The translations under genes and the position numbers were made by a program. 64,000 bases of DNA from NCBI RefSeq assembly GCF_005869845.1, contig NZ_VAWF01000005.1:1-64000 (forward strand), written 5' to 3'. Within the stretch, counting starts at the first letter, position 1. Every line of letters starts with the position of its first letter. Origin of the DNA: Fodinibius saliphilus. Lineage in GTDB: Bacteria; Bacteroidota; Rhodothermia; Balneolales; Balneolaceae. The notes beneath the pieces are model-generated. The model had not been told where the DNA came from. It saw only the letters and a program-made list of their open reading frames with translations, and made no database searches. Below, piece by piece: positions 24,868 to 42,285 of the stretch.

Positions 24868-25069
24868 CCTGTAATATTGTGGTTTAGGGGCATAAGATGC
24901 CAATTATTGCCGTAACTATCCACAGTAGTTACTCTAAATATGCTACAGTATCGAGCCACTCCTACGCATTCAAAACATTTGTGAATGTTAGCTGCGACAA
25001 TATTGTCAACTGTTCTGCTGATTTCTTAAATTGTTGCTCATTTTGAACCATGATATAAATATTTTTTAC

Positions 25070-25357
25070 ATGTCCGTAACGAAAGAAGATGTCAATTACG
25101 TTGCAGATCTAGCGCGTCTGGAACTAACAGAAGAGGAAACCGAATCATTAACGGGGGATATGAACCAGATTCTTGATCATATTGAAACCCTTGAAGAAGT
25201 TGACACCTCCGACGTTGAACCACTGGAGCATGTTATTGAACTTGAGTACCGACTTCGTGATGACAATGCGAAAGAGCCCCTATCACACGAAGATGCCCTT
25301 AAAAATGCGCCTGATGCCGACTCAGATTATTTCCGTGTGCCCCGCGTTATTGATTAA
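25070..25357 (+). CDS. gatC: Aspartyl/glutamyl-tRNA amidotransferase subunit C
   Basis: The 95-residue frame from ATG 25070 begins MSVTKEDVNYVADLARLELT, the classic GatC N-terminus; an upstream TTG at 25031 would add 13 residues of no family relevance. GatC stabilises the GatA/GatB complex that converts misacylated Glu-tRNA-Gln or Asp-tRNA-Asn. The segment MNQILDHIETLEEVDTSDVEPLEHV and the ending SDYFRVPRVID are diagnostic. gatA and gatB are not in the window. It is divergent from ptsH and about 100 bp before the YfhO gene. Confidence 0.95.
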   Translation: MSVTKEDVNYVADLARLELTEEETESLTGDMNQILDHIETLEEVDTSDVEPLEHVIELEYRLRDDNAKEPLSHEDALKNAPDADSDYFRVPRVID

Positions 25358-25458: not shown

Positions 25459-27975
25459 TTGAGTAAACAAAAAGGGAAATACGATCTTAAAGAAGATTTT
25501 ATCTCACGTCTATCCGAAAAAAAACAACATTGGATAGCCTTAGCCATCCTTTTTTTGTTGCCCCTCATCTTATACTCTGCCATCTTTTTAGGGGGCAAGC
25601 AATTTTTAGGGAATGATGTATTACAATGGCGCGCCGGCTCTGAATCTGTTGTTGAACATATTGAAGAACATAATGAACATCCCCTTTGGGCTACCAATAT
25701 GTTTTCAGGCATGCCTTCCTATGTTGTTCATAACCCTTCATCACCATATAACGTTGATACTTTTATTAAAAAGATAGGAGGAGATACCCATCCCCTGCCC
25801 TATTTCTGGATATTGTTGGGTGGTGCCTACTGCTTTTTTGTGGTGATGGGCATGCGTCCTTTTTCATCAGCATTGGGGGCTACTCTTATTGGATTTACGA
25901 CATATCTGCCCATCATTATTGAAGCTGGCCACTATAGCAAGTTTATCACCTTTGCATTTATACCCTGGATGTTTGTGGGGTACTATCTGATCTCCAGGTC
26001 TGATAAAAAATGGCTTGGATTCTTTACCTTTGCTCTTGCTGTAACACTGCTGTTGCGAGGAAACCATCCCCAGGTAACCTATTACTTTTTATACCTGTTA
26101 GGATTCTGGTGGATCTATGACAGCTGGCTCTTCTATCAAAAAGCGGAAATTAAAGACTGGCTCCAGCGAACAGGTATTGCCTTTGGCAGCGGGATATTAG
26201 CCATTCTCTGTAGTATCGACCTCTATTGGAGATTATTAGAGTATGCCCAATACAGTACCCGCGGCGGTTCAACACTCGATACCTCTCAGGCCGGGGGACT
26301 ATCCCTTGAATATGCCTTTAGTTGGTCGCAGGGCGTGGGTGAACTTCTTACTTTAATAATTCCGGGTCTGTACGGTGGTTCTTCCGGTGAAGCCTACTGG
26401 GGACCAAAATCGTTCACCAGCGGCCCCCACTATTTTGGAGCTATAGCATTTGTTTTGGCCCTTATTGGACTCATCCATTATCGGAAAAAAATAAAGTATC
26501 TGTTTTTTGGGGTAGGATCGCTTACGATGCTTTTCTCACTGGGATACCATTTTCCGTTGCTCAATGAGTTTATGTTCAACTACATGCCATATTTCAATAA
26601 ATTTCGAACTCCTGAAATGTGGCTTATTGTTACGGTATTTTGCTATTCAGTACTTGCTGTATTCGGCATTGAGGCATTAATTAGCCTTGCTAAAAATGCT
26701 AAAACATCTCTCAATGATCTATTGATTCCTTTGGGAGTTGCTATCGGCATCGGTGTTATATTTACCCTCGGGAGTAGTGCATTGCTTTCTTTTGAAAAGC
26801 CAGGAGAATTCAATCAGTATGCTCAGCAGTTAGCCCAACAGAATAATGTTTCACCCGACAATCAACGGGTTCAACAGGGCGTAAGCAACTATATTAATAC
26901 CAAGCTCAAACCCAAACGTAAAGAAATTGCCAGTAATGATGCTACACGATATCTGATACTGGTACTTATTGCTGGTGGACTAATCGTGGCTTTTGTTCAA
27001 CGAAAAATAAGCAAAGGCTATCTGTTGCTTGGCCTGCTGCTGCTTACTGCCTATGACATGCTTCGTATTGATGCTCGTTATGTGAACGAAAAACGAATGG
27101 TATCAGATACTTTTGATGCCGAGCGGATGATCCAACAGCGGCAACAGCCTGTGGATACCTTCATTTTGGAAAACATTAATAGCAATGAAGGTTATCCTTA
27201 CCGCGTATTCCCCTTAATGCGAAACCCCTTCAATAATGCTATTCCCGCTTATTTTTACCCTACTATTGGTGGATATACCGGGGCGAAACTAGCTCACTAC
27301 CAAGATATGGTTGATCAGTTACTCATGAAAGGACAATCGGGAATCAACCACCCCATACTGGATATGCTTAATGTAAAGTACGTAACGGCAAAACAACGCC
27401 TTCCTTTTAACGGTTATTCCGAAGTGTATAACGAAGAGGGACAGCGTGTTTATAGAAATGAGGACGTGCTTCCTAAAGCATTCTTTGTAGACTCAATAAA
27501 AACAGTCTCAACGCCACAGCAAGCTGTTGATCTGATGCAACCCACTACTGGTTTCAATCCTGCTTCAACAGCAATTGTAGAAACAAAAAACGCTGTTACA
27601 GCATCTGAGGATACTACATCATCTGTTGCTGTAACCTCTTACAAAGCCAATAGTATTGAGCTAAAGACTTCTACACAAGAGAAAGACTTCCTGGTTTTAA
27701 GTGAAGTCTTTTATCCAGCAGGATGGACAGCAACTATCGATGGCGAAGCTACTGAGATCTATAAAACGAATTTTATTCTTCGCGGGTTGGAGATTCCTGC
27801 TGGTAAACACACCATTAGGATGACATTTAAACCGGCCTCTAACGTTTGGGGAAGTCGTATTGCTTGGTTTGGACACATTATTCTGTGGATATCGGGGATT
27901 GGACTGCTTGTCTTCAACTTCGGTTGGATAGGAAGCAATAATGAACAGCAAGAAGACCAGAGTAGTAAAGAATAA
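25459..27975 (+). CDS. YfhO-family large membrane protein
   Basis: This 838-residue protein has about 12-13 membrane helices in its first 550 residues and a soluble C-terminal domain after helix ten. The conserved loop GNDVLQWRAGSE followed by LWATNMFSGMPSYVV (about 50-95) is the hallmark of Bacteroidota YfhO proteins, which resemble lipid-linked-sugar glycosyltransferases (GT-C fold). The soluble part ends with VLSEVFYPAGWTATIDGE and a last membrane helix. YfhO relatives are linked to glycosylation of teichoic acids or surface lipids, so it fits the glycan genes that follow. The start is a TTG at 25459; no ATG gives the same N-terminus. Confidence 0.9.
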   Translation: MSKQKGKYDLKEDFISRLSEKKQHWIALAILFLLPLILYSAIFLGGKQFLGNDVLQWRAGSESVVEHIEEHNEHPLWATNMFSGMPSYVVHNPSSPYNVDTFIKKIGGDTHPLPYFWILLGGAYCFFVVMGMRPFSSALGATLIGFTTYLPIIIEAGHYSKFITFAFIPWMFVGYYLISRSDKKWLGFFTFALAVTLLLRGNHPQVTYYFLYLLGFWWIYDSWLFYQKAEIKDWLQRTGIAFGSGILAILCSIDLYWRLLEYAQYSTRGGSTLDTSQAGGLSLEYAFSWSQGVGELLTLIIPGLYGGSSGEAYWGPKSFTSGPHYFGAIAFVLALIGLIHYRKKIKYLFFGVGSLTMLFSLGYHFPLLNEFMFNYMPYFNKFRTPEMWLIVTVFCYSVLAVFGIEALISLAKNAKTSLNDLLIPLGVAIGIGVIFTLGSSALLSFEKPGEFNQYAQQLAQQNNVSPDNQRVQQGVSNYINTKLKPKRKEIASNDATRYLILVLIAGGLIVAFVQRKISKGYLLLGLLLLTAYDMLRIDARYVNEKRMVSDTFDAERMIQQRQQPVDTFILENINSNEGYPYRVFPLMRNPFNNAIPAYFYPTIGGYTGAKLAHYQDMVDQLLMKGQSGINHPILDMLNVKYVTAKQRLPFNGYSEVYNEEGQRVYRNEDVLPKAFFVDSIKTVSTPQQAVDLMQPTTGFNPASTAIVETKNAVTASEDTTSSVAVTSYKANSIELKTSTQEKDFLVLSEVFYPAGWTATIDGEATEIYKTNFILRGLEIPAGKHTIRMTFKPASNVWGSRIAWFGHIILWISGIGLLVFNFGWIGSNNEQQEDQSSKE

Positions 27976-27979
27976 TAGT

Positions 27980-28756
27980 TTAACCTTTTTGGTATTTTTT
28001 CCTTACTTCATCAGCACTAAAGTAATCTTCTAACAGCTTGTAATCGCGACTGTAGTAATCTATAACTTTTTCCAGGGATTCTCTTGTTAAATCCTGGAGT
28101 GAATAGGAAGAACCACCCGATTTCTCTGATCTTAATTCAATGTTTGAATTATATTTCTGCAAACGCTCTTCAAGCTTTGATAACTCAGACAAGGTAAATA
28201 TCTCATCGAGATAGGTCAGAGAATTTCCCAAAAACAGGTATTGTGGTCGCAGGTGATGTTCGAGACTGGTATTTATATTACTGTAGTCAATCAAATGATC
28301 TACGAAAAAATTAATATCGGGTATTACAGGCAACCCCCTCTTTTCTAATTCTTTTTGAGAACACTTCAGATCCTGTAAGTCAATAACTCTATTCCGATAG
28401 CAGGAAATAAATCGCTTTACAGGATCACGGACAACGGCAAAGATAATGTTTCTGCTATCAGCCTCCAGGCTCTTAACCCCTGTAAAGGCTTGTGGTCTTT
28501 TGTGGTAATAATCGTGAATATTTTGATATCCCCATTCACGATGCTCTTTGTAATTATACTCTTGGTCAAATTCCAGTTCATACAGCAAATGCTTAATTGA
28601 GGAACAGGCATTTTTCGGAATGGGAATATAAATCAGTTGATGCCCCGGCAGAACAATTTGATGGACTTGATAGCCAGGCATTCCTACCCGGCGTGCGCCA
28701 TAATAGAAATACAGGCGTAGGTTATAAAAAAATGAATAAAAGGTCTTCTTTATCAT
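27980..28756 (-). CDS. Sulfotransferase family 2-type protein
   Basis: This 258-residue protein has the PAPS-binding elements of the sulfotransferase family resembling Sulfotransfer_2: the 5'-phosphosulfate loop IPIPKNACSSIKHLL (about 47-61) and the 3'-phosphate stretch VRDPVKRFISCYRNRV (about 130-145). The family moves sulfate from PAPS to a sugar hydroxyl. It is one of three sulfotransferases in the glycan region and lies opposite and tail-to-tail with the YfhO gene (5 bp between stops). The acceptor sugar is unknown. Substrate and partner assignments are inference. Confidence 0.85.
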   Translation of the reverse strand: MIKKTFYSFFYNLRLYFYYGARRVGMPGYQVHQIVLPGHQLIYIPIPKNACSSIKHLLYELEFDQEYNYKEHREWGYQNIHDYYHKRPQAFTGVKSLEADSRNIIFAVVRDPVKRFISCYRNRVIDLQDLKCSQKELEKRGLPVIPDINFFVDHLIDYSNINTSLEHHLRPQYLFLGNSLTYLDEIFTLSELSKLEERLQKYNSNIELRSEKSGGSSYSLQDLTRESLEKVIDYYSRDYKLLEDYFSADEVRKKYQKG

Positions 28757-28901
28757 AATTGAAAAAAAGCGTACTAAATTATCTCCTTATAAGGATAACC
28801 TATTCATATTAGGTGCCTTTGATAAAAAAGTTCTGTTTTTTACACTATTTTGTTTTAATTATTTCTAAGGTAATACAACTTTAAAAAACCATACTGTAGT
28901 A

Positions 28902-29372
28902 ATTAAGAAAAAAATTGAAATATCGTTATTCTTGGTAATCTTCTTTTCTCTCCTTACCCAGCTTTTCACTATCAACAGATATAATGAACCTTATCCTGCC
29001 ATTTTGTTACCAAGTGGGGAACAACTTTTTTTAAATAAAAAAAACTACAACTATACAAAGTATATTGTTGAAGTTATTAGTGATAATGGAGATAAAGAAC
29101 TTATTAATACTGATAAATTATTAGAAACAGTACCTACCCATTACAGGGGGCGGATTATAAAAAATCGATTTGGATTCCCAAATATAAAAAAGGAAGAGAG
29201 ATATAATATTAGAAAGGGACACTCATGGTTCAAAAAAAAACTTCAACCACTTACAACTTTTGACGAAGTTGATAAAATAATAATAAAGAAGCTTTTCTTA
29301 TCACAGAACTTGAATAATCCCATCTCAGACACAACTGATATTCAAACTTACTTTATACTAAGTTTAAAGTAG
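28902..29372 (+). CDS. Small anchored protein upstream of an HTTM gene
   Basis: The frame is open from 28869 to 29372 with no ATG at its 5' end. An ATT at 28902 would begin a basic, hydrophobic anchor (IKKKIEISLFLVIFFSLLTQ), whereas a TTG at 28932 would cut the anchor in half. I favour the longer form, so the start is uncertain (about 146-156 residues). The remainder is a soluble domain with YPAILLPSGEQLF and many Lys and Asn residues. It ends 1 bp before the HTTM protein start, so the two are almost certainly translated together. No family was recognised. It is AT-rich compared with the glycan genes around it. Confidence 0.6.
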   Translation: MKKKIEISLFLVIFFSLLTQLFTINRYNEPYPAILLPSGEQLFLNKKNYNYTKYIVEVISDNGDKELINTDKLLETVPTHYRGRIIKNRFGFPNIKKEERYNIRKGHSWFKKKLQPLTTFDEVDKIIIKKLFLSQNLNNPISDTTDIQTYFILSLK

Positions 29373-29373
29373 A

Positions 29374-30516
29374 ATGAATAAAAAAGTAAAAGATTGGTTT
29401 GATTATTTTTTACACAACGATTACGCAATTCCTCAAAAAGGATTGGCTTTATATAGAATAATATACTCAGCCTTCTTTCTTCTACTTGGTCTACCTGTTT
29501 TCTCATGGATTAACAAAAACCCAGATATTTTTTTTGATCCGCCTCAATACAGCATATCTGCATTATTTTCTTCCTTCCCTCCCGAATGGTTTTTTGTCTT
29601 TCTTGACCTTTCTATCTGTATTTTGTTTTTCGCCTTATTATTTGGCTATAAAACAAAGGTAGTTTCAATCTTACTAACTGTTCTTTTAATCATCGGTAAT
29701 TCATTTCGGTACTCATTTGGTAAAATTGATCATAATATAATAGTTGTTCTAGTACCCTTCTTTATGAGTTTTTCGGGGTGGGGTAACACATTATCTTTGG
29801 ACGCAAAATTAAATCCTCAGACCTCTCTTAATAACAAAGATGCCATCAGCTCAGGTTTGCCAATTACAATCCTTGCTCTGCTACTGGGGTTCGGTTTCTT
29901 CTCAGCGGGTTATCCTAAGCTATTCACTTGGATCGACTTCGATTTAACAACTCAAGGAGTTAAGAATTGGGTGTTAAGAGGATTTTATATCCTTGGGCGT
30001 GATGATTTCTTAATATCGTACTTTTCACAAATTAACTACCCATTATTTTGGGAAATTTTAGATATCATCGCTGTCCTCTTTGAACTAGGTTTTCTTATAG
30101 CTGTATTTAACAAAAAATATTTCAGGATTTTTGTTGGGATAGCTATTTTTTTCCATTTGAATAATCTTCTTATGCTTAATATTTCATTTACTTCTCATTT
30201 AATCATTTACCTTTTGTTTATAAACTGGAATTCACTTTTAAATAAGATTAATATTTCCTATATCTCAGAACAAATTACAATAAGGAAGCTATTATTGTCA
30301 TCTGCTATTTATCTCAGTCTTTTGATAACCTTTTATCATTTCAACAGTAATATTACCCAGCTCCTAACCTTTTCTCCTGTAGCTATTTTACTTTCATCAA
30401 TTGTTAATAACCCTTCAGTAATTATTAATTTTTCATTACTATTTTTCTCAGCAACTATAGTATTTATACTTGCTGCCAAAAAAGTTAAAATTACCTTTTT
30501 TAAAAATAATGTTTAA
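29374..30516 (+). CDS. HTTM-domain membrane protein
   Basis: This 380-residue protein has the pattern of the HTTM family (related to vitamin K-dependent gamma-carboxylase), with about nine helices and the N-terminal signature GLALYRIIYSAFFLLLGLP, then FRYSFGKIDHNIIVVLVPFFMSFSGWG. The histidine in KIDHN is a conserved feature of the family. Bacterial members are mostly uncharacterised and often sit beside glycan or surface genes. Its small upstream partner is 1 bp away. Both are noticeably AT-rich, which suggests they arrived as a unit. Confidence 0.8.
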   Translation: MNKKVKDWFDYFLHNDYAIPQKGLALYRIIYSAFFLLLGLPVFSWINKNPDIFFDPPQYSISALFSSFPPEWFFVFLDLSICILFFALLFGYKTKVVSILLTVLLIIGNSFRYSFGKIDHNIIVVLVPFFMSFSGWGNTLSLDAKLNPQTSLNNKDAISSGLPITILALLLGFGFFSAGYPKLFTWIDFDLTTQGVKNWVLRGFYILGRDDFLISYFSQINYPLFWEILDIIAVLFELGFLIAVFNKKYFRIFVGIAIFFHLNNLLMLNISFTSHLIIYLLFINWNSLLNKINISYISEQITIRKLLLSSAIYLSLLITFYHFNSNITQLLTFSPVAILLSSIVNNPSVIINFSLLFFSATIVFILAAKKVKITFFKNNV

Positions 30517-30577
30517 GAATTTAATGCACTTCCATACTAACATATGTTGAGGTAAATTCTCAGCTAATTACCTAATT

Positions 30578-31414
30578 TTACTCCCAGCCCAACCATTTGC
30601 CTGTAAAGATCTTTTTGAACTCTGCCCAATATCTAAACGCAGGTACCCAACTAATAAATTCTGAAATACTAAGTGACTTTCCCTGAGAGCGCCGAATATT
30701 ATATAACTGGTACTTGCGCTGCGCCTTCGTCAAGTATTTTTTATGCTTCTTATAAAACTGGTAATACCCTTTTGACGAGGAATGACTTGTAATACGATCC
30801 TCTTGGTGATCCATGTGAATATTCTGTAACGGTTTTTGTACATTTTTAATTGGGCCATATACTCTACAAAGCCGCAACCAAAGGTCATAATCTTGTGCTG
30901 CTTCCAGTTCAGGGTCAAAGCCACCTACTTCAAGAATACGATCCCTGCGAGCCAATACTTGGTTTCCGACCTGATTTGTAAATTGCAATGTTTCCAGATC
31001 AATAATTTTGGCTTTATGCCAGACTGCCTCTCCCTTGGAATGGATCATCCTCGTATCTGAAGTAACGAACGCATATTTATCGCTATATGCATTCATCAAA
31101 CATTGAATTCGATCTTGATGCCACTCGTCATCATCATCCAGACCGGCAACAAATTCTCCGGAAGCTTCTTCTATACCTTTATTTCTTGCACGACAAGCCC
31201 CAACAGAATCATCAAACTGTATATGCCTAATATTGCATTGACCTTTATACTCTTCAATAACATCTGCAGTATGATCTACAGACCCATCATTAACTACAAT
31301 AATTTCCATATTTTCATAGGTCTGCACCAACACCGAGTCTATAGCTCGCGGCAACAGATCAGCCCTATTGTGGGTAGTAATAATAGCAGAAACCAACGGT
31401 AAAGAATCAGCCAT
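30578..31414 (-). CDS. Family 2 glycosyltransferase
   Basis: This 278-residue enzyme has the GT-A fold. Nucleotide-sugar binding is seen at VSAIITTHNRADLLPRAIDSVL (about 8-29) with VVNDGSVDHTADVI, the metal-binding DDD cluster lies in GLDDDDEWHQDR (about 91-102), and AAQDYDLWLRLC supplies the acceptor-side acid. The donor and acceptor cannot be deduced. It lacks a membrane anchor. It is divergent from a second GT2 gene (31509) and belongs to the surface-glycan region. Confidence 0.9.
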   Translation of the reverse strand: MADSLPLVSAIITTHNRADLLPRAIDSVLVQTYENMEIIVVNDGSVDHTADVIEEYKGQCNIRHIQFDDSVGACRARNKGIEEASGEFVAGLDDDDEWHQDRIQCLMNAYSDKYAFVTSDTRMIHSKGEAVWHKAKIIDLETLQFTNQVGNQVLARRDRILEVGGFDPELEAAQDYDLWLRLCRVYGPIKNVQKPLQNIHMDHQEDRITSHSSSKGYYQFYKKHKKYLTKAQRKYQLYNIRRSQGKSLSISEFISWVPAFRYWAEFKKIFTGKWLGWE

Positions 31415-31508
31415 TAACTTTATTAGGTTATAGAATCTAAAATTCGCATTCTTGCTCTAAAAAAATGTATTTTCATGTTTTCATTAATTAACTGGTACAA
31501 TACAACCA

Positions 31509-32432
31509 ATGAGCAGTAATCCAACAGTTTCTTTTATTATCTGTACGTACAACAGGCAAGAGTACCTTGATGACACCTTGGAATCATTAGTATCTGAGAA
31601 GTTCCCTCAAACGCAGATAGAACTGCTCATTGTTGACAACAACTCAAAAGATAATACCCCAGCTGTTGTTCAGAAATACCAGCAATTAACCGCTAAAGAT
31701 GGTAAACCCATACGTTATATCAAAGAAAGGAATCAGGGGCTTTCGCACGCCCGAAATCGAGGTATTGCGGAATCAAAAGCACCGTATATCGTTTTTTTGG
31801 ATGATGATATTCGGGCGACCTCTTCTTTAATACCTGCGTGGGTGTCATTTTTTGAATCCAATCCGGAGGCAGTAGCAGCAGGAGGTAAGATTCATGTGCA
31901 ATTTGATGATCCCCGCCCCTCGTGGATGTCTCACTTTTTACTCCCCCTGTTAGGATATCACGATTTAGGAGACAGTCTAAAAACCTATCCAAAAACGAAA
32001 TATCCTTTCGGTGGAAATATGGGCTTTAAAAAAAACATATTCGAACAGGTCGCTACATTCAATATCGAACTGGGTCGGAAAGGAGAATCGCTAAATGCCG
32101 GGGAAGAAAAAGAACTATTCCGCCGCATTCGAGAACAATCTAACGACATCTATTACCTGCCTGATGCCTTTTTGTATCACCGAGTTAATAAAAGCAGACT
32201 TACCGTTGACTACATTCGGAAACAGGCGTTGGGGCTTGGTAAAAGCATGCACCGCCGACTTAAACAAGCTTCGACAATCCAAAAAGCCCAAAATTGGTTC
32301 GCCGAGTTATTTAAACTAGCTGCATCATTCCCATTGGGCTTTGTTTACCTTATAAGCTTTCAACTCGACAAAGCAATCATGCTGTTCAAATTTCGCTGGT
32401 GGATCTGGAAAGGGTACAATCAATCTTCTTGA
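31509..32432 (+). CDS. Family 2 glycosyltransferase
   Basis: This 307-residue GT-A enzyme shows VSFIICTYNRQEYLDDTLESL near its start, IVDNNSKDNTPAVVQ, and the metal-binding FLDDDIRATSS (about 97-107). The later GGNMGFKKNIFEQ and EEKELFRRI segments are typical of GT2 rhamnosyl- or hexosyltransferases. The C-terminal 50 residues carry a hydrophobic segment (KLAASFPLGFVYLISF) that may touch the membrane. It is convergent with the GT4 gene 117 bp away. Confidence 0.88.
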   Translation: MSSNPTVSFIICTYNRQEYLDDTLESLVSEKFPQTQIELLIVDNNSKDNTPAVVQKYQQLTAKDGKPIRYIKERNQGLSHARNRGIAESKAPYIVFLDDDIRATSSLIPAWVSFFESNPEAVAAGGKIHVQFDDPRPSWMSHFLLPLLGYHDLGDSLKTYPKTKYPFGGNMGFKKNIFEQVATFNIELGRKGESLNAGEEKELFRRIREQSNDIYYLPDAFLYHRVNKSRLTVDYIRKQALGLGKSMHRRLKQASTIQKAQNWFAELFKLAASFPLGFVYLISFQLDKAIMLFKFRWWIWKGYNQSS

Positions 32433-32548
32433 AGGGTATTATTGCAAATCTTTAACCCTCACTCTGAGATGGGTTTTGCCAACACAGCTTATTACTACGG
32501 GCGTATAAACTCCCTAAGAGGTAGTTACCCACAGCTTTTGCAAAAGTC

Positions 32549-33718
32549 TCAGTTAAGGCATTCCCCGTAGATCTGTGTAAGCTTTTGCCCTTGTTTTTTG
32601 GCATCAAATTGGGCCCTCATTCGTTTTGACGCTGCTTGCCCCATCTGCTTTCTTAAGCTTGGATCTTGATATAAAGACATAAGATGTGCTGCCAATCTCT
32701 TTGTATCTTTCTCTTCAGCCAACAAGCCCGTTTCTTTATCATCTACCACCTCCGGTATATCACCATGCTTACTGCCTATTATTGGAAGGCCTGTTGCTGC
32801 AGCTTCAATGGTCGTGACAGGAGCCCCTCCCTCGTTATCACCATTATCGGCTTCAATACTTGGTGCTAAAAAAAGATTATGTTTATAATATTCTTTTCGT
32901 AGCTGTTCCAATGGAATCATCCCAGCCAGATGAACGGTTTCTTCCAACCCATTTTTTGTGATAAAATTCAGAATCTCCTGTTTTACGCTTTCAGAATCAG
33001 AAGTATCACTACTATCACCAATAAGTGTTACTGTGCCCTTCCCTCCTTCTTTCCGAAATCTCAGAAACGCTTTTAATCCATAGATAAATCCTTTTTTCTC
33101 GACAAACCGTCCAGCCATGAGTATTTTCAACTCTTGTTCTTGAGAGTATTTTGTACGGACTTCATAGTTATCTAAATCAACTCCCAGATGTTGAACAGTA
33201 ATTTTTTTCGAAGGACATCCAAGATGTTCTATCTTTTCTTTCATTGCCGGTCCTTCTACCAAGAAACGGTCTCCCTTGTCGAATAATCGGCGGTACTTCT
33301 TTTTCCATTTGGGTTTTTCGCGGGGTAAAGAGGAGGCATCATACCCATAAAAGGTCGTCACTAATGGAACCTTTAGCCGATCTGCCAAACCTACGCTATA
33401 GTACCCCATTGGACCAAAGTGAGCATGGATAAGATCAACCTCCCTTTTTTTAGCTTGCCGGTAAAAACTGGGATAATACCCTATAATTCTTTTGATAAGG
33501 CTGTCCATCTGCCGAATTCCAAATAGCAATTCCTCGTCCCGAGAATAGAGTTCAGGAATCCAATCAACCATATCCAGATTTTTACTGAAGTTTGTTAAAA
33601 CCAAACTGTCTACATCCACCTGATTTTTTAACTGGGTATAGATCCAATTCTCACTTTGTTTAAAAAAGATATGCGAGGTATGACATACCAGAGTACTTGC
33701 CAGAGAGGACTCACTCAT
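32549..33718 (-). CDS. Family 4 glycosyltransferase (GT-B fold)
   Basis: This 389-residue enzyme of the colanic-acid WcaL-like type has an N-terminal GT-B half with LIHAHFGPMGYYSVGLADRL and TTFYGYDASSLPR, and a C-terminal half with KILMAGRFVEKKGFIYGLKAF and the E-x7-E stretch GGAPVTTIEAAATGLPIIGS. It adds a sugar to a growing lipid-linked oligosaccharide, using an NDP-sugar donor. It is the last gene of a minus-strand operon that starts with the aminotransferase at 39384. The flippase gene lies 8 bp upstream. Confidence 0.93.
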   Translation of the reverse strand: MSESSLASTLVCHTSHIFFKQSENWIYTQLKNQVDVDSLVLTNFSKNLDMVDWIPELYSRDEELLFGIRQMDSLIKRIIGYYPSFYRQAKKREVDLIHAHFGPMGYYSVGLADRLKVPLVTTFYGYDASSLPREKPKWKKKYRRLFDKGDRFLVEGPAMKEKIEHLGCPSKKITVQHLGVDLDNYEVRTKYSQEQELKILMAGRFVEKKGFIYGLKAFLRFRKEGGKGTVTLIGDSSDTSDSESVKQEILNFITKNGLEETVHLAGMIPLEQLRKEYYKHNLFLAPSIEADNGDNEGGAPVTTIEAAATGLPIIGSKHGDIPEVVDDKETGLLAEEKDTKRLAAHLMSLYQDPSLRKQMGQAASKRMRAQFDAKKQGQKLTQIYGECLN

Positions 33719-33726
33719 AACTTGAA

Positions 33727-35190
33727 TTAACTTTTATCATCTTTGAGATTCTCAATGCTTTCAAATAATAATCGTTTTGCCTCTTTATAGGCTTTTAGTC
33801 TGCCGAAGTGAATTAACCCTAGATATGTAATAATCCCCGTCAGTACCTGTATTACTAGTACTGAAAAAAGAGTCCAGGTCGACGGTATCACCAATCCAAC
33901 GCCATACACAATAACGGCCATAGTAATACTGTAGAAAAAAACACCGGCAACATTAGTTATAAATTCAGTAAATGTCATGTCAATGATATTTCCTACTATT
34001 GTAATTGCAGGGTACCAAACAATATAACTTCGGATAGCATAGGCAGCTGCAACTCCTATAACGCCCCATTTAAGGCCGATAACAAAAGCTAAAATGGTTA
34101 CAATACTTACTACAATATTCCATTTAAACTGAACATCCGTTTTATTTTGGGACTGAAATATCCATCCGGAAGTAGAACCCATCGGTTGCTTTATCCCAAC
34201 AAAGCATAGTATCTGCAATACCGGTACTACCTCTTCCCATTGAGAACCAAAAACAGAAATAACAAAAGGCTCGGCCACTACAAATAACCCACACATCATT
34301 GGCATACTAATGAGCGCAATAATTCTGTTGGCCTGCAGATATATTCGTTTAACCCGTTGGATATCATCCTGGATCTTTGACAAAGCCGGAAACATTACTT
34401 GTTGTAGTACATTTGTAACTTGGCTAATGGGAAGCAGCATGGTACTGTAGGCCCTGGTATAGATTCCCAGCCCTGCTGAACCCACGAAACGCCCGATAAG
34501 CAAATCATCGGCACTACGCGACCAGTAGTTGATTATTTTGAACCCCAACAGGTTAGAACTGAATTTAAGAAGGTCTTTAACCGCCTTCCCGTCATATATC
34601 CATTTCGGACGCCACGGGCTAAGTACCCAAAGCAACACAGAATTAGACCCTACTGTGATAAGACTTTGCCAAGCTAAACTCCAAACTCCAAAACCCGTTA
34701 ACGCCATACCCACTGCAATACCGCCACTTATCACCTGTGTTGAAATTTGTACGATTGTCAATTTTTTAAAGTTCATCTTTCGCTGCAGCAATGACTGCTG
34801 TACTGTGTTCAATGAACCGATAAAAAACTGTAGTGCTATAAAACGGGTGAGATTAACCAGTGCAGGCTCTCCATAGAAATCGGCAACAAGCGATGCCGAT
34901 GCTCCAACAATCAGGGTCAAGAACGTTCCAATCAGCACATTTATCCAAAAAATGGAGGACAAATGACGCTCTTCAATATTTTTTTTCTGGATGAGGGCCG
35001 CCCCAAAACCGGCATCACTAAATAACTCAACGAATCCGGTAATAACGATAATCATCCCTATCAAACCGAAAGCCTCGGGCGTCAATAACCTGGTGAGAAG
35101 GACTATAACACCAAAACGAATAAGCTGTTGCACCACGCGTGCCGTAGCAGTCCAACTAACTCCGGATAGTGTTTTTTCTTTAAGAGCCAT
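33727..35190 (-). CDS. Wzx-type polysaccharide flippase (MOP/PST family)
   Basis: This 487-residue protein has about 12-14 hydrophobic helices. The N-terminal MALKEKTLSGVSWTATARV and SDAGFGAALIQKKNIEERHLSSIFWINVLIG are the hallmark of the WzxC/MOP superfamily lipopolysaccharide biosynthesis proteins that move lipid-linked repeat units across the inner membrane. Its presence beside three glycosyltransferases, with no ABC transporter in view, points to a Wzx/Wzy-type pathway, although no Wzy polymerase was found in the window. Confidence 0.93.
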   Translation of the reverse strand: MALKEKTLSGVSWTATARVVQQLIRFGVIVLLTRLLTPEAFGLIGMIIVITGFVELFSDAGFGAALIQKKNIEERHLSSIFWINVLIGTFLTLIVGASASLVADFYGEPALVNLTRFIALQFFIGSLNTVQQSLLQRKMNFKKLTIVQISTQVISGGIAVGMALTGFGVWSLAWQSLITVGSNSVLLWVLSPWRPKWIYDGKAVKDLLKFSSNLLGFKIINYWSRSADDLLIGRFVGSAGLGIYTRAYSTMLLPISQVTNVLQQVMFPALSKIQDDIQRVKRIYLQANRIIALISMPMMCGLFVVAEPFVISVFGSQWEEVVPVLQILCFVGIKQPMGSTSGWIFQSQNKTDVQFKWNIVVSIVTILAFVIGLKWGVIGVAAAYAIRSYIVWYPAITIVGNIIDMTFTEFITNVAGVFFYSITMAVIVYGVGLVIPSTWTLFSVLVIQVLTGIITYLGLIHFGRLKAYKEAKRLLFESIENLKDDKS

Positions 35191-35229
35191 TAATAATAGA
35201 ACTCAAACTATGAATTGAATGAAATATTC

Positions 35230-36267
35230 TCATTTTTTATAACTAATTGTATCTGCAAAAGTAGTCTCAGATGTATGAGAGTTATGAATTTCAGATAACA
35301 TTTCAGCCCGTTTTTTTCTCCCCTCTTCTTTGTAATACAATCTCAGATTGATCTTTTTATAGATTTCATTATAAATTTTGTACAGCAAATATCGGAGTTT
35401 CCCTACTTTGAAAGTATTGGACGTATATGTTATTGGATATCCCAGATTTGATAAAATATCAGCTGTTAATGACTCAAAAATCCTTGTCTCTTTTGGGGAC
35501 AATTGTTTCAAAAATTTACCCTTGTTATCTGACATCACCGGTTTCGATAGGTTCTCCCAAAAGTTTGATTTTTCAGCCTCTTTAACAGCACTCCTGCTCT
35601 CATGAAAATAAAGCATTGCTTCCTCAAAAGAGATTCCTACAAATGTACAGATCTCCTCTAACACCGATTGGGGATTTTCTATAAGATCTTCGTACCGTAC
35701 CAATTTAACCGACCCTTTATTGATAAGTTCTTGGTACACCTGCAAACACTTTTGTTGCTCTTGCTTCCACTCTTCAGCAATAAAATATACGTGCTGATCG
35801 TGTGTTGCTACTTTTTTTATTGAACAAGCCACATCTCGCCCATCACGACATAAATAAATAAACTTTGCATCCGGGACCACTTCTAAAATTTGGAATGCGT
35901 GATTAAATAGCTTGTTTTCCTTACATACCCACCCTTCTGCTCCTTCTCTTTGAGAGTAAAGGGTGTATAATGTGTTAATAATACCACTAACATTGGGGGT
36001 ATGACATTGATCTAATACTTCTTGGACAGTAAATTGGTATTTCCATTCCAAATGTGAACCGGGCACTTGGGTCATACGAATTGCTTGCTCCACTAACTTC
36101 CTGAACTGCTCCTGATCGTTAAGAGGACCGTAATTAGCAGCGACCTTCATCAGATGTCTCCACATATGCGGGGGCGGCGGAGCAGCCAGAATAGAATGCA
36201 TTCCCAACATTTTTCTCAGCAAATTACTACCGCTGCGTTCCGAAGACATAATAAATATCGGTTTCAT
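35230..36267 (-). CDS. Sulfotransferase (PAPS-dependent)
   Basis: This 345-residue protein has a 5'-phosphosulfate loop FIMSSERSGSNLLRKMLG (about 5-22) and a 3'-phosphate site YLCRDGRDVACSIKK (about 140-154), the layout of Sulfotransfer_1/3 families. It overlaps a second sulfotransferase gene in an operon; the start is separated from the upstream stop by one base. The C-terminal 80 residues are basic. The acceptor is probably a sugar of the glycan made by this cluster, which is inference. Confidence 0.88.
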   Translation of the reverse strand: MKPIFIMSSERSGSNLLRKMLGMHSILAAPPPPHMWRHLMKVAANYGPLNDQEQFRKLVEQAIRMTQVPGSHLEWKYQFTVQEVLDQCHTPNVSGIINTLYTLYSQREGAEGWVCKENKLFNHAFQILEVVPDAKFIYLCRDGRDVACSIKKVATHDQHVYFIAEEWKQEQQKCLQVYQELINKGSVKLVRYEDLIENPQSVLEEICTFVGISFEEAMLYFHESRSAVKEAEKSNFWENLSKPVMSDNKGKFLKQLSPKETRIFESLTADILSNLGYPITYTSNTFKVGKLRYLLYKIYNEIYKKINLRLYYKEEGRKKRAEMLSEIHNSHTSETTFADTISYKK

Positions 36268-36268
36268 A

Positions 36269-37162
36269 TCAACTCTCTAGCTTTGCGATCATTTCAATGA
36301 GATCCTCCTCTTCAGCTGATTGTGCCTCATTGACAGATATTGGAAATGATTCCTTGCCCAAGGTATCTTTTTTCTCCAAAGAAAATTTGGCTGCTATTTT
36401 AGCAATTTCTGATTCTGGAGCTGAGCAGAACTGTTTGTATGATAGGCGATATTTTCTCTGGGTTTGAATACGACCTAAATCCTTATTGAGTTTTTCGCGA
36501 AGCCCTATAAGCTGTCGGGCAATCTGTTCTGCAGGTGCTAAACCTTCCAATTCTCGCCAATTAGGTGGTCTTACTGACCACCATTGAGCAATATCACCCA
36601 TATTTTGTTTGCGGCTTCTAATCAATGAAACTCCTGCATCCTTTAACTCACGATCGATTACAATAAAGTTAGATTGCGGAAAAATCTTGGATATTGCATC
36701 TATTCGCAAAATGTTTTTTACATTTTTATTGATAAAGGGTACTCCCTTAAAAAGCTGTTCTATTTTGGCAATGGTGCCGCTGATAATATCCTCATCTTTT
36801 GCACTTACATCTTTATACGCTATGTAATCTCGGTATCCCCAAAATTGGGCCCAGAAATCGCCCCCCTCGTGCGGGGCATTTGGGCCCGGGATATTTCCAT
36901 AGCTATTTGAAAAATCAGAATGATATATACCAAATAAAGCCAAACGTATGCTCGTGTTTAATGCTGTAGCATGAGGCAACCGGTCGGTACCATTCATAAA
37001 ATAGGCCACTTTAAGACGATGTGCCATGTATTGGTATAGAAGTGTTGTTCCAGACCTGGGCAGTCCCAAAATAAAAATGGGAGGGTATTGGGGCTTCCCG
37101 ACAGAGCTGACCATAAAGGTCTCTATCGGTGCCAGTAGTTTATTTGCAATTTTCTGTATCAT
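36269..37162 (-). CDS. Sulfotransferase-like protein
   Basis: This 297-residue protein shares the P-loop-like 5'-phosphosulfate site IFILGLPRSGTTLLYQYM (about 29-46) with sulfotransferases. Its 3'-phosphate site is less standard (FIVIDRELKDAGVSLIRSR, about 164-182), with Glu-Leu-Lys where Arg-Asp-Pro is more usual. It is followed after one base by the 345-residue sulfotransferase. Together with the gene at 27980 this makes three such enzymes within 10 kb. Sulfation is the most likely activity but has not been shown. Confidence 0.82.
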   Translation of the reverse strand: MIQKIANKLLAPIETFMVSSVGKPQYPPIFILGLPRSGTTLLYQYMAHRLKVAYFMNGTDRLPHATALNTSIRLALFGIYHSDFSNSYGNIPGPNAPHEGGDFWAQFWGYRDYIAYKDVSAKDEDIISGTIAKIEQLFKGVPFINKNVKNILRIDAISKIFPQSNFIVIDRELKDAGVSLIRSRKQNMGDIAQWWSVRPPNWRELEGLAPAEQIARQLIGLREKLNKDLGRIQTQRKYRLSYKQFCSAPESEIAKIAAKFSLEKKDTLGKESFPISVNEAQSAEEEDLIEMIAKLES

Positions 37163-37184: not shown

Positions 37185-38168
37185 CTATATCGACTTTACT
37201 TTCTTTACTGCCTTTAAAAGCTTGCCGGAGATCACCCCACGCTTTACCGGCCATTTAGAACTCCCAAAGCGACTTTTAAAGTTAGCAACCCCTTCATGTC
37301 CTCCACTGGGATTGAAATCGTAAAAACGAAAGCCTTTTTCAATACCATCTTTCATTATTTCTGGGTGCAACACATTATTAGCTCGATAATCAAAATACTT
37401 CTTGTATGATGCTCCATGCCAGTAATCAATATGGTTATTCCAATAAAAAACAATAGCCCCCGATGCCAATTCACCTTCAACTTCTGCTAACCATAGTTTC
37501 ACATTTGACGGGTATTGCTTGTTCAGCCGATAACATTCTTCAAAAAAGTCCCAAGAATAGGAACTACTGGCATCAGCCCCCCACCGTTCAAGTGAAGCTT
37601 GATACGCCTCAAAATAAGCTTTGTAATCCTTTTTGTTAGCACTAGTACGTACTGAAACCCCCATATCAAGACCTTTATTCATACTACTCCGATGGCCCCT
37701 GGAAAACCCTTCCAATACCTTTTCAAAACTTTGGTCAAGAGATATAATTTGAGTAAAATCGTCCTCGCCCCGATCAAAGGAATTAATCCAGGTATTTGCA
37801 TTCCAGTGACTCCGCAAGGGGTTATCGGTAAGATATACCTCGCCAGTTCGCAACTCTTGAATCGTCTTATATAGGATTGTCACCTCTTCATCTTTAAGTT
37901 CCCCATCTGCAATAATACCTCCGTAGCATCCTGCAAAAGAAGATTCATAGTTTCTGAGAATTCCCATTGTTGACTGACTTGTTTGAACAAGCGGAAGTAT
38001 TGCTTTTGTCCCTCGGTCAGTAATAAGAGCAATAGGACGATTAACCTTATCGCTATATACTTTTTCAATAAGGGTGTGCCAAAGTGGAGAATGAAAAAAG
38101 GTTGCATATGGACACGCTTCAGCAACTTTACGCCAAAGAGAATGATCTGCATTCTTTATAATCTTCAT
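37185..38168 (-). CDS. FemAB-like GNAT acyltransferase
   Basis: This 327-residue protein resembles the GNAT-fold acyl/aminoacyltransferases of the FemAB and PEP-CTERM/exopolysaccharide type (Acetyltransf_6). Key stretches are ATFFHSPLWHTLIEK, NPLRSHWNANTWI, GHRSSMNKGLDMG and ASGAIVFYWNNHIDYWHGAS with a final FNPSGGHEGVANFKSRFG. It lies between the aminotransferase gene and two sulfotransferase genes. An attractive but unproven role is acylation of the amino group that the aminotransferase places on the sugar. Confidence 0.85.
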   Translation of the reverse strand: MKIIKNADHSLWRKVAEACPYATFFHSPLWHTLIEKVYSDKVNRPIALITDRGTKAILPLVQTSQSTMGILRNYESSFAGCYGGIIADGELKDEEVTILYKTIQELRTGEVYLTDNPLRSHWNANTWINSFDRGEDDFTQIISLDQSFEKVLEGFSRGHRSSMNKGLDMGVSVRTSANKKDYKAYFEAYQASLERWGADASSSYSWDFFEECYRLNKQYPSNVKLWLAEVEGELASGAIVFYWNNHIDYWHGASYKKYFDYRANNVLHPEIMKDGIEKGFRFYDFNPSGGHEGVANFKSRFGSSKWPVKRGVISGKLLKAVKKVKSI

Positions 38169-38256: not shown

Positions 38257-39384
38257 TTAAAGCAGTTGGTCAATTACATCTGATATTTTCTTAAAGTAAG
38301 CCTCCCCGACATTTAAATCTGGATAGAGTGGCAAACGAATCAACCGATTACTATACTGCTGCGTTAATGTTAAAGATTGTTCAGCCCCAATATTAGATTC
38401 ATAAAATGGAGAACTATGCAAAGGAACATAATGAAATGTCGCGGGTATCCCCACATCTTTAAAAGCAGCAATCAACTCACTTTGTTGATCCTCATCTTCT
38501 GCTAAGAAATAAAAAATATGGTAATTTGAATCACAGCTGTTCGGTATTACAGGCAACTGTAAGTGATTCTTATACGGTCTCAACGTATCCATATATTGCT
38601 GCCATATACGCTTACGCTCAGCTTTTATTTGATCACGTTTTTCTAACTGGGCAGCGAGTAATGCCGCTAATATATCTGAAGGAATATAGCTGCTTCCCTC
38701 TTTTACCCACGTATATTTATCAACCTCTCCACGAATAAAAGCAGCTCTGTTGGTTCCTTTTTCACGTACTATCTCAGCCTTCTTAGCAATGTCATTGTTG
38801 TTGGTAATAAAAGCACCACCTTCTCCACAGGTAATGTTCTTGGTATCATGAAAGCTAAAACAACCAATATCCCCAATAGTACCTAAAGCATTATCTTTGT
38901 AGTAGGCATCTACCCCCTGGGCCGCATCTTCTATTACATACAGATCATATTGAGCTGCTATATTCATGATAGCATCCATATCACAACTTACCCCGGCATA
39001 ATGTACCGGAACAATAGCTCTAGTATTATCGGTAATTTTCTGTTCAATATCAGCTGGATCGATATTCATTGTTTGAGGTAAGATATCCGCAAAAACAGGT
39101 TTTGCTCCTCTTAAAATCACGGCATTAGCAGATGATACAAAATTAAATGATGGCATAATTACTTCATCTCCCTCTTCTATCCCCAATACAATCATCGCCA
39201 TCTCAAGGGCATGCGTACAAGAAGTTGTAAGCAGTACATGATTAACATTTAACCAGTCCTCCATCTCTTCCTGAACACCTTGTGTTTTTGGACCGTCTCC
39301 GCGCAAATGCTTTTGTCGCAAAGCATTTATAATAGCTTGTTCTTCCTCTTTTCCTATAAAAGGTTCATTAAAAGGGATATCCAT
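38257..39384 (-). CDS. rffA: Sugar 4-aminotransferase, DegT/DnrJ/EryC1 family (RffA/WecE type)
   Basis: This 375-residue PLP-dependent enzyme makes dTDP-4-amino-4,6-dideoxygalactose or a close relative from a keto sugar. The start IPFNEPFIGKEEEQAI, the VIEDAAQGVDAYY segment (Asp153 pairs with the pyridine nitrogen) and the Schiff-base lysine in SFHDTKNITCGEGGA (Lys182) match the WecE/RffA branch. It is the first gene of the minus-strand glycan operon that runs through the FemAB-like gene, two sulfotransferases, the flippase and GT4. The exact stereochemistry of the product cannot be told from sequence. Confidence 0.88.
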   Translation of the reverse strand: MDIPFNEPFIGKEEEQAIINALRQKHLRGDGPKTQGVQEEMEDWLNVNHVLLTTSCTHALEMAMIVLGIEEGDEVIMPSFNFVSSANAVILRGAKPVFADILPQTMNIDPADIEQKITDNTRAIVPVHYAGVSCDMDAIMNIAAQYDLYVIEDAAQGVDAYYKDNALGTIGDIGCFSFHDTKNITCGEGGAFITNNNDIAKKAEIVREKGTNRAAFIRGEVDKYTWVKEGSSYIPSDILAALLAAQLEKRDQIKAERKRIWQQYMDTLRPYKNHLQLPVIPNSCDSNYHIFYFLAEDEDQQSELIAAFKDVGIPATFHYVPLHSSPFYESNIGAEQSLTLTQQYSNRLIRLPLYPDLNVGEAYFKKISDVIDQLL

Positions 39385-39610: not shown

Positions 39611-40597
39611 ATGAAAGCAATTAATGTAATACAACAAGAAGACTACAATAGACTGGAGATTGCAGATACCCCTACTCCCCAACCGGCAGAGCATGAACTG
39701 CTCATAAAAATTGAAGCTACTGCTGTTAACCGTGCTGATTTACTGCAGCGCACCGGCAACTATCCACCTCCCAAAGGGGCCAGTAAAATATTAGGTCTGG
39801 AGATGGCAGGTATTGTTGAAAAAATAGGATCGGCAGTAAAGAATTGGGAAGTCGGAGATAAAATATTTTCGCTGCTCCCGGGCGGTGGATATGCCGAGTT
39901 TTGTACCATCCATGAAGATATGGCAATGCCTATTCCAGAGGATCTCTCCTTCGAGGAAGCTGCAGCAATACCAGAAACCTTTTTAACGGCTTTTCAGGCA
40001 ATCGACTGGCTGGGGAAATTACAACAAGAAGAAACAATTCTTATCCATGCCGCCGGCAGTGGTGTGGGAACTTCTGCAATTCAGCTGGCTCAACATTTGT
40101 TTAATGCTCGAATCATCGCCACGGCAGGCAAAGCTCACAAGCTTGAAACAGCTAAAAAGTTGGGTGCCGACTTTGCCTATAATTATAAGAAGCAAAACTA
40201 CGCCCAGGAAATTATCAGTGATATCGGAGCAGACACGGTTGATCTTGTTATTGACTTTATTGGCAAACCATACTGGCACAAAAATATGGAGATCATCGCC
40301 ACCGACGGCCGTATTGTTTACCTCTCTTTCCTAGGCGGACATAAAGTTGAAGGAATGAGTCTCATTCCCATCTTAAGAAAGCGATTGTCTATTATGGGAT
40401 CGACTCTTCGGTCGAGATCACTGGACTATAAAATTGATCTCACTCAGGATTTTAAAGAGCAAACCCTTTCTCTATTTAGTAACCAAACTTTATCTCCTGT
40501 TATCGATTCTATGTATGATTGGAGTGAAACAGAACAGGCCCACCAGCGCATGCAGAACAACAAAAATACAGGAAAAATTGTATTGACAGGAATGTAA
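39611..40597 (+). CDS. NAD(P)H:quinone oxidoreductase, PIG3-type MDR family
   Basis: This 328-residue medium-chain reductase lacks the catalytic-zinc ligands. The N-terminal catalytic domain carries ATAVNRADLLQRTGNYPPP (typical of the PIG3/QOR group), followed by GLEMAGIVEKIG. The Rossmann domain has ILIHAAGSGVGTSAIQLAQH (about 142-161) and the AGKAHKLETAKKLGADFAY stretch. It probably reduces quinones with NADPH. It stands alone between the aminotransferase and a decayed transposase. Confidence 0.93.
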   Translation: MKAINVIQQEDYNRLEIADTPTPQPAEHELLIKIEATAVNRADLLQRTGNYPPPKGASKILGLEMAGIVEKIGSAVKNWEVGDKIFSLLPGGGYAEFCTIHEDMAMPIPEDLSFEEAAAIPETFLTAFQAIDWLGKLQQEETILIHAAGSGVGTSAIQLAQHLFNARIIATAGKAHKLETAKKLGADFAYNYKKQNYAQEIISDIGADTVDLVIDFIGKPYWHKNMEIIATDGRIVYLSFLGGHKVEGMSLIPILRKRLSIMGSTLRSRSLDYKIDLTQDFKEQTLSLFSNQTLSPVIDSMYDWSETEQAHQRMQNNKNTGKIVLTGM

Positions 40598-41025: not shown

Positions 41026-42285
41026 ATGGCGCAACCGACGTTTAGTACCCATGTTGGAATGGTAGACATTCTACCTGATGAAGTGGGAAAATGGCAAAAG
41101 CTGGAACAGATTATCCACGAAGAAGCCAAAAAATTTAACTTCGAGGAGATCCGCACACCCATAATGGAACAAACCGAACTTATTGCACGGGGTGTGGGGC
41201 AGCTAACCGATATTGTCTCTAAAGAGATGTTTGCTTTCGAACGCGGTGATGATCAATACGTACTTCGCCCTGAATGTACCGCCCCGGTAGCTCGCTCTTT
41301 TGTAGAAAATCACCTTGACCAACGTGGGGGAACCCAAAACCTCTATTATATCGGACCTATGTTCCGCGCCGAGAAGCCCCAAAAGGGACGACAGCGGCAA
41401 TTTCACCAATTCGGAGCAGAAATTATAGGTGCTGATGATCCCGCTGCTGATGTGGATATTATCGCTTTTATGATGGCAATTTACGATCGCGTAGGAATCA
41501 GTAATACTACCCTTAAAATAAATTCTGTTGGCGATCCGGAGAGTCGTAAAGCTTATACCGATGCCCTCAAAGATTATTTTCGTCCCAACCTGGATGAAAT
41601 GAGTGAGATCTCACAACGTCGCTTTGAAAAAAATCCTCTTCGAATTTTGGATTCGAAGGAGGAAGAAGATCAGCCTTTCATTGAAAACGCTCCGGTAATT
41701 ACGGACTTTTTAACCGAAGAAACGGCCGAACACTATAAGCAGGTAAAAGAGCTTTTGGATGCCTTGGATATCACCTATGAAGAAGACCCACACCTGGTAC
41801 GTGGCCTCGACTACTATACCCGCACTGCCTTTGAACTTATTAGTCCTGATCTCGGTGCCCAAGATGCATTAGGTGGTGGTGGTCGTTATGATCTGCTTAT
41901 TGAAGAAATTGGTGGACAACCAACACCTGCCGTTGGCTTTGCCGCCGGTATGGAGCGGCTGCTTATCGCTTGTGAAGAACTTGACATCAGCCTTCAAGAA
42001 GAAGAAATGCTGGATGTATACATTGTAACGCTCGGTGAGGATGCTCGCAAATGGGGACTCCAACATCTTCCCAAGCTTCGAAACGTCGGCCTTTCAGCTT
42101 CGATGGATTATATTGGCCGTTCAATGAAAGCCCAGATGAAAGATGCTGATCGTGAAAATGCGCGTCATACTATCATCGTAGGCAGCCATGAGCTCAAAGA
42201 AGGCAAGTTTACCCTTCGCGATATGAAAGCAAGTGAAGAAGATGCCTATTCCTTTGAGCAGATTCTCGAAAAATTAACATCCTAA
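41026..42285 (+). CDS. hisS: Histidyl-tRNA synthetase
   Basis: This 419-residue class II aminoacyl-tRNA synthetase shows motif 2 FRAEKPQKGRQRQFHQFGAEIIG (about 109-131), the histidine-specific signature LVRGLDYYTRTAFE (about 258-271) and motif 3 AVGFAAGMERLL. The N-terminal HVGMVDILPDEVGKWQ replaces the usual RGTxDILP form, a small but common variant. A C-terminal anticodon-binding domain (about 327-419) is complete. The gene is preceded by the RAYT remnant and followed 62 bp later by the AsmA-like gene. Confidence 0.97.
   Translation: MAQPTFSTHVGMVDILPDEVGKWQKLEQIIHEEAKKFNFEEIRTPIMEQTELIARGVGQLTDIVSKEMFAFERGDDQYVLRPECTAPVARSFVENHLDQRGGTQNLYYIGPMFRAEKPQKGRQRQFHQFGAEIIGADDPAADVDIIAFMMAIYDRVGISNTTLKINSVGDPESRKAYTDALKDYFRPNLDEMSEISQRRFEKNPLRILDSKEEEDQPFIENAPVITDFLTEETAEHYKQVKELLDALDITYEEDPHLVRGLDYYTRTAFELISPDLGAQDALGGGGRYDLLIEEIGGQPTPAVGFAAGMERLLIACEELDISLQEEEMLDVYIVTLGEDARKWGLQHLPKLRNVGLSASMDYIGRSMKAQMKDADRENARHTIIVGSHELKEGKFTLRDMKASEEDAYSFEQILEKLTS

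Follow-up and report, generated by a model that had tools for sequence, protein, structure and literature searches.

Seaweeds, animals and cyanobacteria are well known to bear sulfated coats; to our knowledge, such coats have hardly been described in the bacterial group to which Fodinibius belongs (Balneolota). The genome of the salt-loving Fodinibius saliphilus comprises 3.6 Mb and is 98.7% complete. Within the window (the 64,000-nucleotide stretch analysed here, positions 1 to 64,000 of contig NZ_VAWF01000005.1), three sulfotransferase genes lie among genes for surface-glycan synthesis. We consider it likely that the segment from 25.4 to 39.4 kb is a Fodinibius gatC–hisS glycan locus, O-antigen- or capsule-like in character, that serves to build or decorate a surface or extracellular glycan bearing sulfate and amino sugar.

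Three predicted PAPS-dependent sulfotransferases

The gene for P0001 (27980..28756, minus strand) encodes a Sulfotransfer_2 protein (PF03567, 7.6e-17; 62.7 bits against a curated cut-off of 22). P0002 (35230..36267, minus) and P0003 (36269..37162, minus) belong to Sulfotransfer_3 (PF13469, 7.7e-29 and 1.4e-18; 101.9 and 68.4 bits, cut-off 27). The translations of all three contain a 5′-PSB loop and a 3′-PB R...S motif, read as PIPKNACSSIK and RDPVKRFIS in P0001, SSERSGSNLL and RDGRDVACS in P0002, and GLPRSGTTLL and RELKDAGVS in P0003. The P0001 motifs do not vary across 7 aligned sequences. In an alignment of 35 homologues of P0003, residues R36, G38, T40, K146, R171 and S179 are invariant and position 99 is acidic (Glu or Asp) in all but one (34/35); comparing it with the Glu of TPST and NDST, we take residue 99 to be a candidate catalytic base. 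Judged by family and by intact motifs, P0001, P0002 and P0003 are predicted to be genuine PAPS sulfotransferases.

As a sequence search of P0003 against the PDB gave no useful match, its fold was predicted with AlphaFold2 (pLDDT 94.3, pTM 0.92). The closest match to the model is STF1 of M. tuberculosis (2zq5; Z 18.1, rmsd 3.4, 253 residues), followed by STF9 (Z 16.9), TPST1 (15.0), CurM (14.6), NDST1 (12.8) and HS 3-OST (~12.4), whereas the adenylate kinase background (Z ~10.9) falls below STF1, TPST1 and NDST1. The high-confidence model of P0003, the one protein of the three that was modelled, thus predicts a sulfotransferase fold. Mycobacterial STF1 and STF9 and human TPST are its nearest solved folds, at 14-17% identity, although their substrates and context differ. 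P0002 matched CurM and TPST chains by sequence, CurM being the nearest solved structure. Small molecules and peptides are substrates of sulfotransferase families too, and membership of Sulfotransfer_3 does not reveal the substrate.

Three Pfam sulfotransferase searches found 8 such genes in the 3.6-Mb genome, from which ~0.02 would be expected per 9.2 kb; the occurrence of three within 9.2 kb is therefore not due to chance.

Gene organization of the locus

The two Sulfotransfer_3 genes form a tandem inside an operon that runs from 39384 down to 32549, all on the minus strand, with gaps of 88, 22, 1, 39 and 8 bases in that order. It comprises a WecE-like dTDP-4-amino-4,6-dideoxyhexose transaminase (38257..39384), a FemAB-like GNAT acyl- or aminoacyl-transferase (37185..38168), P0003, P0002, a Wzx-type MOP flippase (33727..35190; PF13440, with NF007773 above cut-off) and a GT4 glycosyltransferase (32549..33718; PF00534, 68% identical in the nearest relative, G004). 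The transaminase scores 520 bits with NF008687 (cut-off 375) and 472 with TIGR02379 (cut-off 435), which places it within the NCBIfam equivalog/subfamily definition of the dTDP-Fuc4N transaminase WecE. The FemAB-like protein exceeds the cut-offs of PF13480 and PF02388, broad GNAT/FemAB Pfam domains that are its only assignments, and falls below the FemX/PEP-CTERM FemAB equivalog cut-offs (TIGR03019, 86.7 against 260; NF047883, 26 against 500). The original prediction, made from the DNA alone, had read PAPS-binding motifs in the genes at 27980, 35230 and 36269, and had placed two of these genes, a single base apart, within an operon that also holds a flippase, a glycosyltransferase, a FemAB-like acyltransferase and an amino-sugar synthase; open reading frames, Pfam matches and motifs bear out each of these points.

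P0001 lies outside this operon, standing alone and convergent with the gene for a YfhO-family membrane protein (25459..27975, plus; PF09586), which is 69-82% identical in 11/11 genus relatives. Between P0001 and the operon lie two GT2 glycosyltransferase genes (PF00535), one at 30578..31414 (minus; 54-67% in most genus loci) and one at 31509..32432 (plus; 54-69% in all relatives). They are preceded by an AT-rich insert (28932..30516, plus; GC 0.303) with two ORFs of 146 and 380 aa that have no Pfam or NCBIfam match and were not seen in the loci of genus relatives. The left border is gatC (25031..25357, plus), which most of the 12 genus genomes have in the same place. On the right, a zinc-binding alcohol dehydrogenase family gene (39611..40597, plus; PF00107), syntenic in all genus genomes, is followed by hisS (41026..42285, plus; 85-93% in 11 relatives). 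Pfam searches of the window ORFs between 25 and 40 kb found no Wzy, PCP, priming transferase or exporter.

A variable locus at a fixed site

With hisS as the anchor, the same interval was compared in 11 other Fodinibius genomes (12 in total with the host). The flanks are syntenic (hpt-tilS-birA-pgi-ptsI-ptsH-gatC on one side, ADH-hisS on the other), and every one of the 12 genomes carries at least one sulfotransferase gene between gatC and hisS. YfhO and GT2 genes make up the core, joined in the 11 relatives by a flippase of 494-498 aa; the host is without this core flippase and bears a different one in its cassette. P0001 orthologues (47-54%) occur in 8 of the 12 genus genomes, always at gatC–hisS, and in 1 of 55 other Balneolaceae. 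In G004 the GT4 (68%) and DegT (74%) genes are kept, the sulfotransferase is different, and a Branch-type transferase replaces P0001. Three further genomes (G005, G007 and G009) each carry a set of four sulfotransferase-like genes, together with DegT and a WbqC-like gene; Pfam searches on three of the four in G005 placed two above the cut-off and one just below. A TupA-like ATP-grasp gene is present at the locus in five genomes (by Pfam in G003, by likeness in the others).

O-antigen-like loci typically exchange genes at a constant chromosomal position. The pattern between gatC and hisS, as read from these sequences, is that of a variable, O-antigen-like swapping locus that retains a capacity for sulfation while its core stays constant and its cassette is exchanged. 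The claim of three sulfotransferases in one surface-glycan region stands in that all three lie in the glycan locus, but they do not form one unit: P0001 belongs to the genus core, whereas P0002 and P0003 are part of a swapped-in cassette. Similarly, the genomic predictions of the earlier glycan-operon reading hold, except that the operon turns out to be part of a variable locus without a Wzy, primer or exporter of its own.

PAPS supply and the main EPS region

Both PAPS synthesis and candidates for the missing polymer functions are encoded on another contig, C1. CysC, CysD and CysN, for which the original prediction had proposed a search, were found above NCBIfam family cut-offs at C1:1431-1437k, together with CysQ; the single APS kinase of the genome lies at C1:1435292. 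Because CysC, CysD and CysN are present, a lack of PAPS synthesis, which would have counted against that prediction, is excluded. These genes are embedded in the main capsule/EPS region, which also encodes an SLBB/Poly_export (Wza-type) protein, a WecA-like priming enzyme, a flippase and two further sulfotransferases. As for the proposed search for a Wzy polymerase, this EPS cluster holds a multi-spanning candidate that matches no family, and a PCP-like protein on C1 likewise has no family confirmation. RmlB, which makes the substrate of WecE-type transaminases, is also encoded on C1.

Sulfate assimilation has a separate sulfite reductase/CysH locus on C2. The CysH there carries the CC and CxxC cysteine motifs characteristic of APS-type reductases and matches the broad CysH model, with both the NCBIfam APS and PAPS reductase models below cut-off. 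An APS-type assimilatory CysH would leave PAPS free for sulfation, which these features do no more than suggest.

The P0003 subfamily and its FemAB-like neighbor

A scan of GTDB genomes with a three-member P0003 alignment (an eight-member alignment was too divergent) found 67 relatives in many phyla. The nearest, at 42-43% (43% being the maximum), are from MAGs named Bacteroidetes and Nitrococcus, and the Nitrococcus MAG has the host's gene order of DegT-FemAB-sulfotransferase. P0003 was probably acquired horizontally, because the tree groups it with these two MAGs (support 100/100) and not with F. roseus. The latter has an independent tandem at another site, made up of a P0003-like (~30%) and a P0002-like (32%) member.

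In 19 of 27 FemAB-bearing loci, the FemAB-like gene adjoins the P0003-family gene, against 6.7 expected from random gene order within the locus, which is a lenient null given that functional clusters are clumped. Of the 28 FemAB-like proteins, every one has a PF13480 match and 21 have a PF02388 match. With respect to the remaining neighbors, 10 of the FemAB-bearing loci have a DegT transaminase, 10 have a DUF7033/NodB-like protein and none has both (P = 0.003, kinship ignored). The DUF7033 protein shows NodB-like motifs, and its assignment as a deacetylase is weak by Pfam. The DegT transaminase and the DUF7033 protein would each yield a free amine, and P0003-family loci thus suggest a module that makes an amine, acylates it and sulfates. 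We raise tentatively the broader idea that a mobile, cross-phylum module (the PF13469 subfamily, a FemAB-like GNAT and either DegT/WecE or DUF7033/NodB-like) might serve bacteria in general to produce sulfated amino-sugar glycans that are N-acylated or N-sulfated, and that it is inserted here into a genus-wide sulfoglycan locus of Fodinibius. A search of the open-access literature found no paper joining FemAB, sulfotransferase and polysaccharide. In terms of substrate chemistry, the FemAB pairing would provide a handle if the glycan is sulfated.

Comparison with known systems

The synechan (xss) cluster of Synechocystis PCC 6803 resembles the Fodinibius locus in that a single cluster combines Wzx, many glycosyltransferases and two sulfotransferases from different subfamilies (PMC8205485). 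Sulfotransferases, glycosyltransferases and Wzx thus share a cluster here as in an xss-like Wzx/Wzy-type locus, but a Wzy and a PCP in that same cluster are absent from the window ORFs between 25 and 40 kb. According to the part of the synechan report drawn on here, xss has its own Wzy and PCP and the regulators XssQ/R/S, whereas the Fodinibius candidates for Wzy, PCP and export lie elsewhere; that part names no FemAB or transaminase, both of which the Fodinibius cassette contains (PMC8205485). Unlike xss as described there, the cassette is swapped at a fixed gatC–hisS site.

A nearly equal parts list is found in the putative sulfated GAG-like cluster of Pontiella sulfatireligans F21, with GT2/GT4, a tuaB-type flippase, stf, vioA (dTDP-4-amino-4,6-dideoxyglucose transaminase) and yfhO, and in this organism a sulfated exopolymer has been measured (PMC7356697). 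Pontiella differs in belonging to Kiritimatiellota and in having a single sulfotransferase in the cluster (PMC7356697), whereas in Fodinibius the locus holds three sulfotransferases drawn from two families as well as a FemAB-like gene, and the PAPS genes lie on a different contig. By analogy, the Fodinibius locus would work like the synechan or Pontiella cluster, with a glycan predicted to be sulfated.

The Enterobacterial common antigen pathway (wecA-wecG) was also considered, the window encoding a WecE-like transaminase and C1 encoding WecA-, WecB-, WecC- and WecG-like proteins. It is not claimed, as the NCBIfam models for wecA, wecC and wecG stay below cut-off (those for wecB and wecE exceed it). 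In addition, the Fodinibius genes are not in one cluster, a FemAB-like GNAT takes the place of WecD, and sulfotransferases are added.

Proposed mechanism and alternatives

A route consistent with this gene content would begin with dTDP-4-keto-6-deoxyglucose, supplied by RmlB and aminated by the WecE-like transaminase. The FemAB-like GNAT may then acylate or aminoacylate the new amine, this amine chemistry being drawn from the WecE and FemAB assignments. GT2 and GT4 enzymes would assemble the glycan unit on a lipid carrier, and P0001, P0002 and P0003 would move sulfuryl groups from PAPS to different positions in the cytoplasm. CysD/N and CysC would provide the PAPS, and CysQ would remove the by-product PAP. 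The unit is presumably exported by the Wzx-type flippase, after which the C1 machinery might also serve its polymerization and export, or the unit might instead be passed on to an anchor of lipid or protein.

Since polymerase and export genes lie outside the locus, a polymer and a decorated LPS or glycolipid both remain readings of the product. The latter is a variant of our main reading, to which we give a considerable chance, somewhat short of even: the locus would attach sulfate to LPS, to a glycolipid or to a glycan bound to protein, in the form of a single unit and not of a long exopolysaccharide, a flippase-delivered, lipid-linked oligosaccharide being ligated without Wzy. The lack of Wzy and exporter within the locus agrees with this, as do the O-antigen-like swapping at a fixed site and a YfhO-type protein in the core of all 12 genomes, from a family that has glycosyltransferase members (weak NCBIfam PgfM1 match). 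Against it, the WecA-like, SLBB exporter and PCP-like set on C1 could serve both, and the similar Pontiella cluster accompanies a sulfated exopolymer (PMC7356697). That polymer, 75-80% of which is N-sulfated (PMC7356697), bears on a different proposal, namely that the P0003/FemAB pair N-sulfates an amino sugar as animal NDST does, using the amine from the transaminase (elsewhere from the DUF7033 protein) while FemAB acylates another amine. The mutually exclusive DegT and DUF7033/NodB-like neighbors (10 and 10, no overlap) and the presence of NDST1 among the structural matches of P0003 fit such a role. We nonetheless regard it as unlikely, as acylation of an amine by a FemAB-type GNAT would block N-sulfation there, STF1 and TPST are closer in fold to P0003 than NDST is, and Pfam gives the DUF7033 protein no more than a weak deacetylase assignment.

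The remaining explanations would sever the sulfotransferases from glycan synthesis or from function altogether. Given that CurM is nearest to P0002 among solved structures, the enzymes might act on a small-molecule natural product and owe their position in a glycan locus to accident; with no polyketide or peptide synthase nearby, and with glycosyltransferases, flippases and sugar enzymes adjoining in every genus genome, we find this very improbable. Decay or inactivity of the sulfotransferase-like genes, which the low identity between homologues (≤43% for P0003) could suggest, is at least as hard to credit and in our estimate barely conceivable, the frames and motifs being intact and the PAPS-site residues invariant across homologues. 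We retain a sulfated, amino-sugar-containing glycan as the likely product of the gatC–hisS locus.

Distribution in Balneolaceae

In a single genus, a glycan locus with sulfotransferase genes is retained at one unchanging chromosomal position. Provided that its glycan is sulfated, hypersaline heterotrophs would represent a neglected source of both sulfated glycans and prokaryotic sulfotransferases. The synechan authors note a link to high salinity and regard sulfated extracellular polysaccharides as something that, among bacteria, only cyanobacteria have (PMC8205485); in a study of mat metagenomes, the Bacteroidetes MAGs were reported to contain no sulfotransferase (PMC9723792). A search of the open-access literature found no paper joining Balneolaceae and sulfotransferase and no sulfated glycan for the phylum Balneolota.

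Sulfotransfer_3 genes were found in 50 of 67 Balneolaceae genomes, with up to 14 each and mostly together with APS kinase. Across the 67 genomes, 42 have both a sulfotransferase and APS kinase, 8 have a sulfotransferase only, 5 have APS kinase only and 12 have neither (Fisher P = 6e-5, kinship ignored). Several of the 8 sulfotransferase-bearing genomes in which CysC was undetected are fragmented. The median number of Sulfotransfer_3 matches per genome is 5.5 in Fodinibius, compared with 1 in the rest of the family.

Genes for a sulfotransferase, a FemAB-like protein and a DUF7033 protein with NodB-like motifs form a module that recurs at L041, L042, L044, L047, L049, L055, L059 and L061 (with L045 and L046 in addition), accompanied in some cases by a hexapeptide acetyltransferase. 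The taxa carrying this module comprise Balneolota, Calditrichota, KSB1, Chloroflexota, Bacteroidota, Bacillota and Alphaproteobacteria.

With respect to the window's own sulfotransferases, a tandem of P0003-like and P0002-like genes was also observed in F. roseus (NZ_FQUS01000017; L069, from 7947 onwards), where it is independent, lies at a different site and is accompanied by two further genes, one aminotransferase-like and the other WbqC-like. In the corresponding locus of the Fodinibius genome G010, an extra Sulfotransfer_2 gene (L158:9373-10098) adjoins the P0001 orthologue, which suggests duplication or gain within the locus core. Between P0001 and the GT2 gene, the window holds an AT-rich insertion (28932-30516; 30% GC) with two ORFs, neither of which belongs to a known family; the insertion was seen in none of the other genus loci. 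At the right border, some genus genomes (L155, L156 and L163) share a 125-aa ORF, encoded on the opposite strand between ADH and hisS, that the window lacks.

Elsewhere in the F. saliphilus genome, a second CysH-like protein (PF01507; 218 aa) is encoded on contig C4 (L038:6857-7513), apart from the assimilation locus. Three small ORFs scattered through the sulfate activation and capsule region (L011:1445-1777, 7640-8002 and 10880-11233) look like four-helix-bundle proteins of the 23S rRNA intervening sequence type.
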